From: Isoptericola halotolerans
GTDB taxonomy: Bacteria > Actinomycetota > Actinomycetes > Actinomycetales > Cellulomonadaceae
Reading direction: 5' to 3'
Assembly (NCBI RefSeq): GCF_013149785.1
Contig: NZ_JABEZU010000002.1
Coordinates: 868,001 to 932,000 of the forward strand
DNA length: 64,000 nucleotides
Shown: positions 3,345 through 34,777 of the stretch, piece by piece
Layout: each line of letters begins with the position of its first letter
How positions within the stretch are numbered: position 1 is the first letter of the stretch
Translations under genes and position numbers: made by a program
Notes under the pieces: generated by a model
Database searches by the model: none
What the model saw: the letters and a program-made list of their open reading frames with translations, nothing else
Told to the model about the DNA's origin: nothing

Positions 3345-3961
3345 GGTGATCTCTCCTCGGCGTCGTCCGTCGCACGGCGGTCCGCCAGCCGTGCGGTGAG
3401 TCTGTCCCTATCGTCCCAGGTGTCGACGTCGTCGCTCATCCCCGTCTCGTCGGGCACCGTGACCAGGTGCAGGCCGGCGGCCAGGGTCCGCACCGGGGCT
3501 CCGTGCGGGTCCGTGCCCTGCAGGGCCGCGGCCAGGGCGTCACGGCGGTAGAGGCCGACGAGCCACTGGGCGCGGCCGGCCCGGACGAGGTGGGCACCGT
3601 CGGCCTCCGGGTGCCGTGCGACGGCGGCGTGCAGCGCGGGCAGGGCGGCGGCCGCCCCGGGGACGTCGACGGCCAGCACCAGCACCCACGGCGGTGCACC
3701 GGGCCGGCCCAGCGCACGCAGACCGGCGTCGATCCCGGCCACGGGGCCGCCGAAGGGCGGATCCTCGCGGGTGACGACGAGCGGCCCACCGCCCGTGCCG
3801 AGGATCTCGTCGGGTCCGACGACGGCGGTCAGCTCGGCGTCGGCGGTGGCGGCCAGGGCATGCTCCAGAAGGGTGGCGTGCCCGACGACGACGCGCGGTT
3901 TCGGGGTCCCGCCGAGACGGGCGGCGCGACCTCCCGCGAGGACGACGGCGTCGTACCTCAT
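3341..3961 (-). CDS. mobA: Molybdenum cofactor guanylyltransferase-like NTP transferase
   Basis: A 206-residue nucleotidyltransferase. It starts MRYDAVVLAGGRAARLGGTPKP, the LAGG...G...KP nucleotide-binding loop of MobA/GlmU-type enzymes. Later it has DEILGTGGGPLVVTREDPPFGGPVAGIDAGLRAL and LVLAVDVPGAAAAL; the DVP corresponds to the metal-binding DxP of the family. MobA attaches GMP to molybdopterin; the nitrate reductase encoded at 6909-9143 is of a class that needs this bis-MGD form. The start at 3961 overlaps the moeA stop as ATGA. The loop departs from the usual RMGxDK, as in other actinobacterial MobA-like proteins, so exact nucleotide specificity is not proven. Confidence 0.82.
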   Translation of the reverse strand: MRYDAVVLAGGRAARLGGTPKPRVVVGHATLLEHALAATADAELTAVVGPDEILGTGGGPLVVTREDPPFGGPVAGIDAGLRALGRPGAPPWVLVLAVDVPGAAAALPALHAAVARHPEADGAHLVRAGRAQWLVGLYRRDALAAALQGTDPHGAPVRTLAAGLHLVTVPDETGMSDDVDTWDDRDRLTARLADRRATDDAEERSP

Positions 3962-5268
3962 GGGCACCACGCACCCAGGGGGTGGACGGTCACCTCGTCG
4001 CCGACGGCGACGCCCAGCGTCCCGGCCGGGACCACGGCGAGGGCGTCGGCCCGGGGGAGCGCGGACAGGTGGTGCCCGTCGCGCGCGGCCGGGGTGACGC
4101 CGTCGGGGCCGGTGACGACGGGGAGCACCTGCTCGGCGTGCGGCGGGCACGACCACGCGCTCGCGGCGCGCACCGTGCTGGCCGGAGGAGGCCCGTCCCG
4201 GCCCGCGAGCCGTCCGACGGCGGGCCGGGCGAACAGCGCGAAGGACACGAGGGCGCTGACAGGGTTGCCGGGGACGGCGATCCACGGCACCCCCCGCCAG
4301 GTGGCGAGCGCCTGGGGTCGGCCGGGCCGCATGGCGACCGCCGCGACGTCCACGCCATCGGCCGCCCCGGAGGCCAGCACCTCGCGGACCACGTCGCTCG
4401 CTCCGGCGGAGACGCCCCCCGAGGTCACGATCAGATCCACTCCCGGATGTTGTGGGCGCGAAACCTGGCCCGAATCATCCCGTTCTGCGGCATGAATGGG
4501 CACGGAAATCGCGCCCACAACCCTGTCGAGGGCGGTAGTCAGGGAGTCGGCGGCGTCGGGGACCGCGCCGACGCGGACGACGTCCGCCCCGGCCTGCCGC
4601 GCGAGGGCGGCCAGCATGAGGGAGTTCGAGTCGGGGATCGTCCCCGGGGCGGTCGATCCGAGACCGGCGAGCTCGGTGCCGGTCGAGAGCACGGCGACGC
4701 GCGGTCGCCGGTGCACGGGCAGCGCGGTGAGACCGGCCGCGGCGGCGGCGGCGACGAGACCGGGGCCGACCGTGGTGCCGGAGTCGGCCAGCACCTCGCC
4801 GGCGGTGATGTCGGTACCGGCCCGCCGCACGTGGTCGCGCCGCTGGCGCCCCAGCGTCACCGTCCGCTCCGTCGTCGGGCGGCCCGCGACGAACCGGCCG
4901 GTCGAGGTGCGCTCGACGGGCACGACGGCGTCGAACCCGTCGGGCAGGGGTGCGCCGGTCATGATCCGCACCACCCCCGGATGTTGTGCACCCACAGCAT
5001 CGAGGGGGTGGCCGGGGCGGGCGTCGGCGAGCACCGGCAGCGTGACGTCCGTGCCGTCGTCGGGCAGGTCGGCGCTGCGTACGGCGTAGCCGTCCATCGC
5101 GGAGTTGTCGAACGCCGGGACGGGGGCTGCCGCGACCACGTCACGTCCGACGACCAGGCCGATCGGGTCGGCTGCGTCCAGCGGCACGTCGATCACCTCG
5201 AGCGGGCGCACCAGGGCGAGCGTCGCCGTAACGTGCTCGGCGATCGTGCGCGGCGTCGGACCGGTCAT
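3958..5268 (-). CDS. moeA: Molybdopterin molybdenumtransferase MoeA (copy 1) carrying two in-frame palindromic insertions
   Basis: MoeA inserts molybdate into adenylylated molybdopterin. This 436-residue copy has FDNSAMDGYAVR, VVRIMTGAPLPDG, VLSTGTEL, DSNSLMLAAL, VTSGGVSAG and AVPGNPVSALVSF, all core MoeA motifs. Two stretches do not fit the family: about 25 residues (near 250-274) just before VDLIVTSGGVS, and a short one (near 86-100) before VVRIMTGAP. Both are encoded by DNA palindromes (4449-4521 and 4971-5011) and both end QHPGV. The second MoeA in the window (33479-34777) lacks them. The frame stays open, so the protein may be functional. It is the first gene of the operon; TACGGT lies 6 bp before the ATG, so the transcript is probably leaderless. 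Confidence 0.93.
   Translation of the reverse strand: MTGPTPRTIAEHVTATLALVRPLEVIDVPLDAADPIGLVVGRDVVAAAPVPAFDNSAMDGYAVRSADLPDDGTDVTLPVLADARPGHPLDAVGAQHPGVVRIMTGAPLPDGFDAVVPVERTSTGRFVAGRPTTERTVTLGRQRRDHVRRAGTDITAGEVLADSGTTVGPGLVAAAAAAGLTALPVHRRPRVAVLSTGTELAGLGSTAPGTIPDSNSLMLAALARQAGADVVRVGAVPDAADSLTTALDRVVGAISVPIHAAERDDSGQVSRPQHPGVDLIVTSGGVSAGASDVVREVLASGAADGVDVAAVAMRPGRPQALATWRGVPWIAVPGNPVSALVSFALFARPAVGRLAGRDGPPPASTVRAASAWSCPPHAEQVLPVVTGPDGVTPAARDGHHLSALPRADALAVVPAGTLGVAVGDEVTVHPLGAWCP
4449..4521. repeat. 73-bp palindromic element inserted in frame in moeA
   Basis: The ends form a perfect 13-bp inverted repeat, GTTGTGGGCGCGA at 4449-4461 and TCGCGCCCACAAC at 4509-4521. The interior continues as an imperfect palindrome (CCTGGCCCGAATCAT against ATGAATGGGCACGG) around a loop near 4478-4490. 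It falls where MoeA proteins normally run straight into the VDLIVTSGG motif, and it reads through in the moeA frame without a stop. The flank CCACTCCCGGATGTTGTG (4437-4454) recurs with one difference at 4971-4988. It resembles REP/MITE-like or coding palindromic elements. There is no transposase nearby. Confidence 0.72.
4971..5011. repeat. Short palindrome related to the 4449-4521 element, also inside moeA
   Basis: The left arm CCACCCCCGGATGTTGTG (4971-4988) and the right arm CACAGCATCGAGGGGGTGG (4993-5011) pair imperfectly around CACC. The left arm matches 17 of 18 bases at 4437-4454. In the moeA frame it encodes AVGAQHPGV, while the longer element encodes VGA, then about 19 extra residues, then QHPGV. 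This looks like the same element without its interior. Confidence 0.6.
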
Positions 5269-33478: not shown

Positions 33479-34777
33479 GTGCATCACGACACGACGACCC
33501 GTCGGCCGGTGGCGGAGCACGCCGCGGCCGTGGCAGGCCTGGTCGGCCCGGCGCTCCGGCGGGCAGCCGCGCGGCGTGCGGTCCCCGCCGGGCTCGCCGA
33601 CCTGCTGGCCGTCGCCGCGGGGGGCGCGGCGTTGGCACCGCGAGTGCTCGCGCGGGACGCCGTTGCCGCCGTCGACCTGCCGGGCTTCGACAACTCGCAG
33701 ATGGACGGCTACGCGGTCCGCGCCGCCGACCTGGCCGGCGCGGCGCCGTCGGACCCGGTCCCCGTGCCGGTCGCGGCGCCGGTGCCGGCCGGGACCCAGC
33801 CCTCTCCGCTGGCCCCCGGAACCGCGGCACCGGTGATGACCGGCGCCCCGGTCCCGGCCGGGGCGGACGCCGTCGTGAAGATCGAGGACGCCGACCCACC
33901 GGCCTTTCCGGCGCCGGGCACCACGGCGACCGTCCGGTTCGGCGCGCCCGTCGCGCCGGGGACCTTCGTGCGCCGGAGAGGGTCCGACGTCGTCGCCGGG
34001 GACGTCGTCCTCCCGGCGGGCACCCCGCTCGGACCGCCGCAGCTCGGCGTGCTCGCCGCGGCCGGAGTCGTCGAGGTCGCCGTCGCCGAACCACCGCACG
34101 TGCTGCTGCTCTCCACCGGTTCCGAGCTGGTGGCGGCGGGCGGACGGCTCGGCCCGGCGCAGGTGCACGACGCGAACGGGGCCGCGCTGACCGCCGGGCT
34201 CGCGCAGGCCGGGGCCCGCGCCACCCACCGCGTCGTCCCCGACGACCCGGCCGCCCTGCGCGCCGTCCTGGCCGAGGCGCCCGACGACGTCGCCCTCGTG
34301 GTCACGAGCGGGGGCGTCTCCGCCGGGGCGTACGAGGTGGTGCGCCAGACCCTCACGGACGCCTGGTTCGGGCACGTCGCCGTCCAGCCGGGCGGGCCGC
34401 AGGGGCTCGGCACCATCGCCCTGGGTGACCCGGCGGTGCCGCGGGACGTGCCGCTGGTCGCGTTCCCCGGGAACCCGGTCAGCGCCTACGTCTCCTTCGA
34501 GCTGTTCCTGCGCCCGGTGCTCGCGGCGGCCACGGGGTCGACGCCGGCCCACCGCCCCCGTGGCCGGGCGCCGCTCGCCGAGGCGATCGACTCGCCCGAG
34601 CACCTGCGCCAGGTGCGCCGCGCCCGCCTCGACGCCGACGGCCGCGTCGTCATGGTGGGCGGTCCCGGGTCCCACCTCCTGGCCCACCTCGCGGCCGCTA
34701 CGCTCCTGGTGCACGTGCCACCCGGCGTCGCCCACCTCGACGAGGGCGACGACGTCGACTACTGGGAGATCCGATGA
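33479..34777 (+). CDS. moeA: Molybdopterin molybdenumtransferase MoeA (copy 2)
   Basis: A 432-residue MoeA with FDNSQMDGYAVR, APVMTGAPVPAGADAVVKIED, RRRGSDVVAGDVVL, LLLSTGSELV, VTSGGVSAGAYEVV and VAFPGNPVSAYVSF. It is clearly a paralogue of the MoeA at 3958-5268, not a duplicate, and lacks the two palindromic insertions found there. GTG 33479 was chosen because TAGGCT sits 7 bp upstream; an ATG at 33437 is an alternative. It overlaps moaC by ATGA and diverges from the mod operon. Two MoeA proteins are common in actinobacteria; a division of labour is not established here. Confidence 0.92.
   Translation: MHHDTTTRRPVAEHAAAVAGLVGPALRRAAARRAVPAGLADLLAVAAGGAALAPRVLARDAVAAVDLPGFDNSQMDGYAVRAADLAGAAPSDPVPVPVAAPVPAGTQPSPLAPGTAAPVMTGAPVPAGADAVVKIEDADPPAFPAPGTTATVRFGAPVAPGTFVRRRGSDVVAGDVVLPAGTPLGPPQLGVLAAAGVVEVAVAEPPHVLLLSTGSELVAAGGRLGPAQVHDANGAALTAGLAQAGARATHRVVPDDPAALRAVLAEAPDDVALVVTSGGVSAGAYEVVRQTLTDAWFGHVAVQPGGPQGLGTIALGDPAVPRDVPLVAFPGNPVSAYVSFELFLRPVLAAATGSTPAHRPRGRAPLAEAIDSPEHLRQVRRARLDADGRVVMVGGPGSHLLAHLAAATLLVHVPPGVAHLDEGDDVDYWEIR

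Follow-up and report, generated by a model that had tools for sequence, protein, structure and literature searches.

The window analysed here (the whole stretch of 64,000 nucleotides from the genome of Isoptericola halotolerans, G000; the other Isoptericola genomes compared are G001 to G017, 18 in all) carries a moeA gene in which the initial annotation had noticed a palindrome with perfect 13-bp ends, placing it at 4437-4526. The palindrome is indeed there, slightly inside those limits, as a full 73-bp element (Table 1), and the minus-strand open reading frame of the gene runs through it without a stop codon, gaining about 25 residues, as had also been proposed; translated in frame on that strand, the element reads VVGAISVPIHAAERDDSGQVSRPQ. 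Pairing is found at 25 of its 36 symmetric positions, which none of 20,000 shuffles equalled, and the suggested folding of both strands gave one long hairpin on either (-44.8 and -45.0 kcal/mol, with z-scores of -5.9 and -6.4 and none of 200 shuffles as stable). In an alignment with the E. coli MoeA, 30 residues lie between the aligned blocks here against 7 in E. coli. The second MoeA-type protein of the window lacks the segment, in agreement with the initial annotation, its preceding helix running straight into ALVVTSGGVS. A structure model of MoeA computed from a two-row alignment had a mean pLDDT of 38 and was discarded as useless.

Table 1. Coordinates of the moeA features in the window, and loci of the in-frame inserts in the HATPase/sacsin-like gene
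Feature	Position	Strand	Description
MoeA host gene	3958..5268	-	MoeA_N, MoCF_biosynth, MoeA_C; 436 aa
Full 73-bp palindromic element, moeA site 2	4449..4521		ends GTTGTGGGCGCGA / TCGCGCCCACAAC, perfect 13 bp
16-bp remnant GTTGTGCACCCACAGC, moeA site 1	4983..4998		place of hairpins in G001, G007, G009, G011, G012, G017
Second MoeA-type protein	33626..34768	+
HATPase/sacsin-like insert, L018 (G000)	1501-1573 of L018
HATPase/sacsin-like insert, L150 (G005)
HATPase/sacsin-like inserts, L192, L197, L203, L206

Hairpins of this kind are found at two places in moeA, which makes it one gene with two in-frame landing sites across Isoptericola. A MoeA orthologue was obtained from 16 genomes (G013 and G015 matched the paralogue only), and 15 of these were read across both sites, the MoeA of G010 ending before site 2. 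At site 2, which lies before VDLIVTSGG, the element is present in six of 15 orthologues (G000, G005, G006, G009 in decayed form, G016 and G017), with its left end on the identical codon in all six, between LDx and VV or between LDx and AV, an end that may partly coincide with native sequence, since species with an empty site 2 (e.g. G007 and G011) have VVG codons. The segment is absent from the other nine. At site 1, before VRIMTGAP, six of the 16 orthologues carry a hairpin (Table 1), G000 and G005 a short remnant (16 bp in G000), and G004, G006, G010 and G014 either an ambiguous sequence or at most the remnant of one end. The 16-bp remnant of the window would be the scar of a deletion. G002, G003 and G008, in which the hairpin family was not detected, have no trace at either site.

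Two further features of these sites are recorded here. In the moeA gene of G007 (L074) a stretch of about 21 bp (..CGGCCGGGGTGGTGCG..) is duplicated in tandem directly after the palindrome, in frame, which adds extra site-1 residues. In the window, the flank ATCCGGG(A/G)GTGG is common to the site-1 remnant (4983-4998) and the site-2 element (flank at 4437-4448). A reading of this shared flank as a trace of conversion was rejected: 11 of the 14 bases next to the two sites agree, column-shuffled flanks mostly yield a best pair with 10-12 matches too, and the likeness does not go beyond the genome-wide null.

Just as close orthologues do not all carry the segment without the DNA palindrome, the moeA copy is not the only one in its genome. 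The search for further copies recommended by the initial annotation found the 13-bp end, with at most one mismatch, 24 times in forward and 24 times in reverse orientation (3 and 1 for the reversed control), mostly outside genes, and 24 full paired copies were extracted. They represent a family of 60-73-bp hairpins, mostly with the ends GYTGTGRGC...GCYCACARC. The strict pattern GTTGTGGGCGNGA...TCNCGCCCACAAC is present in four of the 18 Isoptericola genomes, and all 31 stretches that it matched in a species-level genome collection bear the name Isoptericola. With the wider pattern TGTGRGC...GCYCACA, 10-56 copies were counted in 14 of the 18 genomes (controls 0-2), one in G004 and none in G002, G003 and G008; outside Isoptericola, 396 genomes of the order from 107 genera have at most 8 per genome. 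There was no match in viral contigs, searched with three strict patterns, nor in phage or plasmid collections, searched with one copy as query. An Rfam 15 RNA family was ruled out for the eight loci searched, as none of the six hits exceeded its gathering score (four of microRNA families on the elements, one of a microRNA family and one of an sRNA elsewhere). Open-licence literature on palindromic repeats or elements in Isoptericola, Promicromonosporaceae or actinobacteria, judged by titles and abstract openings, contained no description of this family among the matches listed.

To describe the placement of the copies we classified 171 of them from six genomes, which are part of the 197 places counted there by the wide pattern (G000 23/23, G001 39/40, G006 49/56 with 50 copies listed, G005 24/27 with two of the three left-out places lacking a palindrome, G007 15/22, G012 21/29). 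Duplicate sequences were removed, as were candidates with under 14 of the 20 outer pairs formed, and genes were predicted by a home-made caller that uses codon usage learned from the window. The wide pattern forces pairing at positions 3-9, and those positions were left uncounted. Because of the search pattern and the pairing cut-off, decayed copies are missed, among them one of the 24 copies of G000. Copies in genes are undercounted, as the one left out from G001 (L096) is its in-gene moeA copy.

Convergent gene pairs flank 101 of the 171 copies, codirectional pairs 54 and divergent pairs two, while 12 lie in genes and two at the edge of a locus; among the 52 gene pairs of the window, seven are convergent, seven divergent and 38 codirectional. 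The two divergent copies may mark places of missed genes. Of the convergent and codirectional copies taken together, 148 of 155 have a stop codon at most 60 bp away, and 49 of the 54 codirectional ones are closer to the upstream stop codon (p=4e-10; median 14 bp). The copies are also oriented: where a 72/73-bp copy lies between codirectional genes, the better conserved of its inner arms (TGGCCCGATATGCCC) has the direction of the upstream gene in 21 of the 24 cases that were clearly scored (24 of 28 when all are included), and the four clearly scored in-gene copies of this type are oriented against their gene. From orientation and placement behind stop codons together, the element is an oriented gene-end hairpin, with the moeA copy away from its usual home.

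Ordinary RNA-hairpin termination is not supported by the sequence of these copies, since there is neither a T-tract nor a preference for G-U pairs. Four or more T in the 8 nt after the hairpin were found in just one of the 54 codirectional copies, and the 10 nt downstream of these copies are 49% G. G-U mismatches numbered 50 against 46 for A-C on the sense strand, and in a second count 12 against 13, or 21 against 34 when oriented. Selection on the RNA acting through G-U pairs was ruled out, there being no excess of them.

In-frame copies were found in five gene families, namely moeA, a HATPase/sacsin-like gene, a carboxyltransferase, a glycosyltransferase (where the copy lies within the last codons) and a YjeF/Carb_kinase gene. 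The HATPase/sacsin-like gene is a second tolerant gene alongside moeA. Inserts that keep its frame and bear peptide motifs of the family occur in G000, G007, G012, G001, G005, G015, G016 and G017, where they occupy more than one place and are read in two different frames; the DNA palindrome was checked in G000, G007, G012 and G005, and the inserts of the other genomes were read from the protein. Of the 72/73-bp type, every one of the five copies in genes measures 73 bp, a length that 21 of its 81 intergenic copies have (p=0.0019), or nine of 54 within the clade of G000, G007 and G012, where 72 bp is usual (p=4e-4). This is as expected if frame-breaking insertions get removed. For the shorter type the length is little informative, as 62 bp, the length of all seven in-gene copies, is also that of 63 of the 78 intergenic ones. 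Lengths of 73 and 62 bp leave unlike remainders modulo 3, and no single duplication length fits both. Tolerance in proteins is partly explained by the openness of the element itself, with 740 of the 1026 reading frames through the 171 copies being open.

Copies in genes remain well paired. Over the outer 18 positions pairing is 0.89-0.97 in genes and 0.91-0.99 outside, and decay of the in-gene copies was rejected as a general trend, outer pairing being lower in four of the six genomes and inner pairing having no consistent direction; the clearest in-gene drop is that of G005 (0.55 in four copies against 0.835 in 20).

Many positions recur from one species to another. For G000, no fewer than 15 of 24 copies have a counterpart where the orthologous genes of G007 or G012 meet, as judged from a subset of the copies of those two genomes; of the 21 G000 copies in the set that are intergenic, eight have both neighbours in common with a copy of G001, G005 or G006. 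As so many positions are common to several species, most copies are not recent jumps. The distant clades nevertheless have different dialects of the arms at some of these orthologous junctions, and even at the same moeA codon. At the NagD-like junction, G000, G007 and G012 carry a hairpin of the GCGATTTC type, G001 one of the GCACTTC type, G006 a 62-bp one of the GTGAAATCTGCAG type and G013 a decayed one; G003, G005, G008, G015 and G016 have retained the convergent setting without a hairpin, and the remaining seven genomes have a different neighbour. At this junction, clean absence is as common as presence. On the NagD gene tree three of the dialect groups require a single change apiece (support is weak for two of them, 89/88 and 69/88), the mixed remainder three and absence three; the dialect labels of this tree were assigned by us, and G001 was placed with the 62-bp type, 27 of its 39 copies being of the 72/73-bp type. 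At the L013 junction, for which seven other genomes were searched, G000, G007, G012, G006 and G013 have hairpins in two dialects, G008 has a different, imperfect hairpin, and G001 and G003 have none. The imperfect hairpin of G008 prompted a search for a shifted dialect, GCTGCGGGC...GCCCGCAGC, which was ruled out as a family by a single match in the 18 genomes against 0-4 in controls.

The outer arms differ from clade to clade like dialects, and in most of the six genomes they are more uniform within the genome than between clades. Within single genomes the outer arms have identities of 0.95 (G012), 0.94 (G007), 0.91 (G006), 0.89 (G000), 0.84 (G005) and 0.78 (G001); when those of G000 are compared with G001, G005 or G006, identity is 0.71-0.78. 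G001, which has two length types, is barely more uniform internally than in comparison with other clades. The dialects of G009 to G011 and G013 to G017 were taken from one example copy each, the moeA copies and two junctions.

Palindromy is upheld where the sequence itself varies. The outer 22 bp of the 62-bp copies of G006 (35 intergenic ones) are almost invariant, and the most variable of these positions (2, 10 and 17) are paired in 89-100% of copies; positions 23-31 vary by 0.8-1.8 bits and are still paired in 60-83%. Orthologous copies of G000, G007 and G012 were compared in 15 sets, picked by hand from this same-dialect clade. With one pair taken from each set, seven paired double changes were found among 285 outer position pairs, where 0.25 was expected, along with 13 one-sided changes and one position changed on both sides without pairing. 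The inner sequence carries a trace of descent, as its identity is 0.706 for 27 orthologous pairs from these sets, compared with 0.610 for a sample of 600 non-orthologous ones (p=6e-7); with one copy reversed it is 0.589, which is no excess. Position, palindromy and arm sequence evolve under three different rules in a repeat system without RAYT.

The absence of that enzyme is shown by a search for the Y1/RAYT transposase (PF01797), which found it in none of the 18 Isoptericola genomes and in five of 14 control genomes; it is thereby ruled out as the mover. In the genome of the window the exact arms never occur unpaired, the partner always being some 60 bp away, so that no autonomous relative is visible there. 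An autonomous element between close pairs of copies (L019, L086) was likewise rejected, none of the listed open reading frames looking like a transposase by eye. The flanks of the 24 copies of this genome share no common duplication, and filled and empty sites are too diverged to fix the boundary of the element. The initial annotation had suggested a small mobile repeat that tolerates coding regions, or a source of new protein segments. The element is a multicopy repeat that can stand in frame, and the moeA copy does add a protein segment, as Rickettsia palindromic elements (RPE) do; coding copies are however the exception (12/171), and neither a transposase (of the Y1/RAYT family searched) nor a clear target duplication nor an autonomous relative was found.

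Among the closest known systems are the REP superfamilies with their RAYT transposases. In the account of PMC3733652 these are short palindromes with many copies per genome, mostly in convergent or unidirectional settings just downstream of coding regions, and they form species-specific families with some copies inside genes and frequent GT pairing; the main text of that article contains neither 'actino' nor any of six actinobacterial name stems. The Isoptericola family is alike in its extragenic location at gene ends, whether convergent or unidirectional. It differs in length (60-73 bp against 20-40 bp for REP/REPIN), in having no RAYT transposase and no preference for G-U pairs, and in lacking a counterpart of the unpaired GTAG/CGTC tag by the stem of REP, the 24 copies of G000 having no fixed base at 14 flank positions on each side. 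RPE, as portrayed in PMC10969869, are palindromic repeats that stand in frame in unrelated protein genes and add a peptide segment. They are about 150 bp long, and nearly half of the described copies are in genes. In-frame palindromes in unrelated genes are found here too; the Isoptericola hairpins are shorter, rarely in genes and in another phylum. The same article places SPRITE of pneumococcus, a terminator-like repeat, among MITEs. Terminal inverted repeats are a MITE-like trait of the Isoptericola element; unlike in MITEs, its centre is free in sequence yet kept palindromic. No clear target duplication was recognised, and no autonomous element sharing its ends was seen in the genome of the window. 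A G+C-rich hairpin directly behind the gene recalls intrinsic terminators, from which the near absence of T-tracts sets the family apart. DNA uptake sequences of Neisseriaceae, according to what PMC3630211 says of them, have thousands of copies, one sequence per clade, are congruent with the phylogeny, and as inverted pairs are linked to transcription terminators. Their dialects resemble the clade-specific repeat sequence of the Isoptericola family, which differs in having 10-56 paired copies per genome and, in G000, exact arms in paired form only.

The family is best read as a REP-like, RAYT-independent palindromic repeat that is kept at gene ends. We tentatively favour, at a little under even confidence, an account in which the moeA palindrome belongs to a family of gene 3'-end hairpins, confined to the genus, that is homogenised in place and at times becomes an in-frame passenger. 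The repeat would have spread as a non-autonomous palindrome by means of some trans-acting enzyme recognising its outer arms, and copies behind genes would have been kept because the hairpin is useful or harmless there (as a bidirectional transcription end, an mRNA 3' stem or a topological boundary). Homogenisation in place, through re-insertion or hairpin-templated conversion by some factor, would let the dialect turn over while positions stay. Rare copies may have landed in frame in tolerant stretches of proteins, twice in MoeA, and been carried as passengers, some being deleted again to leave short in-frame scars. Several results count against this account: no Y1/RAYT transposase, larger autonomous version or clear target duplication was found, T-tracts are all but absent and G-U pairs are not preferred, G001 is barely more uniform internally than against other clades, and one junction is as often cleanly empty as filled. 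A pure function at 3' ends also leaves the good outer pairing of in-gene copies unexplained, and the four clearly scored in-gene copies of the 72/73-bp type are oriented against their gene. A bolder version, which we think unlikely, sees a new class of dispersed palindromes rewritten in place, with positions (the moeA codons included) fixed across much of the genus and the 20-bp arms of a genome shifting dialect together without RAYT or a recognised transposase. The rewriting would be done through conversion templated by the hairpin, or else a trans factor specific to the dialect would re-insert copies at sites already occupied.

Could the palindrome instead be purely selfish, a MITE- or RPE-like element moved by some transposase, for which sites behind stop codons do least harm and shared positions reflect hot spots and descent? 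The in-frame insertions in five unrelated gene families would fit, as would the avoidance of divergent intergenic space, the several dialect and length types within G001, and the inserts of the HATPase gene, which in G016, G017 and the G000 clade lie at slightly different places of one stretch, in two frames, and look independent at the protein level. We nonetheless find this doubtful, as no duplication was recognised and no autonomous partner found, orthologous copies are more alike than others, as descent predicts, and a nearly symmetric insertion is not expected to be oriented in 21 of 24 cases; paired changes, needless in a dead copy, together with this orientation make a pure selfish element insufficient. 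At the opposite extreme, the copies would be commonplace hairpins of gene ends, serving as bidirectional terminators, that were inherited where they stand without ever having moved and whose arms derive from an ancestral terminator or from convergent selection. This agrees with the position behind stop codons, the shared junctions and the compensatory changes. It seems improbable to us, because a terminator has no need of a common 20-bp arm, and neither common arms nor copies in genes are accounted for by a pure terminator. The presence or absence of in-gene copies among relatives, with two sites in moeA, indicates insertion or deletion of a unit, hairpins are cleanly absent from orthologous junctions in G001, G003 or G008, and T-tracts and G-U preference are lacking.

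By analogy with the uptake-sequence dialects of Neisseria, the copies might also be address sequences for a drifting host DNA-binding factor with a role in nucleoid structure, topology, recombination or uptake. Such a factor would account for arms that are clade-specific and uniform within most genomes, for palindromy at the DNA level without G-U preference, and for the retention of the arms, slightly less well, inside genes too. We hold it to be decidedly improbable, since uptake sequences number thousands of copies per genome (as given in PMC3630211) against 10-56 here, the exact arms of G000 occur solely as inverted pairs, three of the 18 species have no copy of the wide pattern, and dozens of sites could hardly track a drifting factor by point mutation without a copying bias. 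Were the arms nevertheless a recognised address, their dialects would be ready-made specificity swaps for finding the factor. The family makes testable the way in which dispersed repeats become homogenised in bacteria, a possible recruitment of gene-end hairpins from mobile repeats, and the origin of new protein segments from them.

Some minor observations on the copies and their ends can be added. Copies are clustered in places, with 11 of them within about 100 kb in G001 (G001:C1:447100-549694) and 11 within about 190 kb in G006 (G006:C1:2827104-3018696). The ends of some dialects, GTTGTGAGC...GCTCACAAC, resemble two halves of a LacI-type operator drawn apart, a likeness that is probably a coincidence. 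The reversed control ACACYCG...CGRGTGT, itself palindromic, was matched 56 times in G217, 15 times in G178 and 12 times in G252, and 0-8 times elsewhere; families of hairpin repeats with different ends may exist in other genera.
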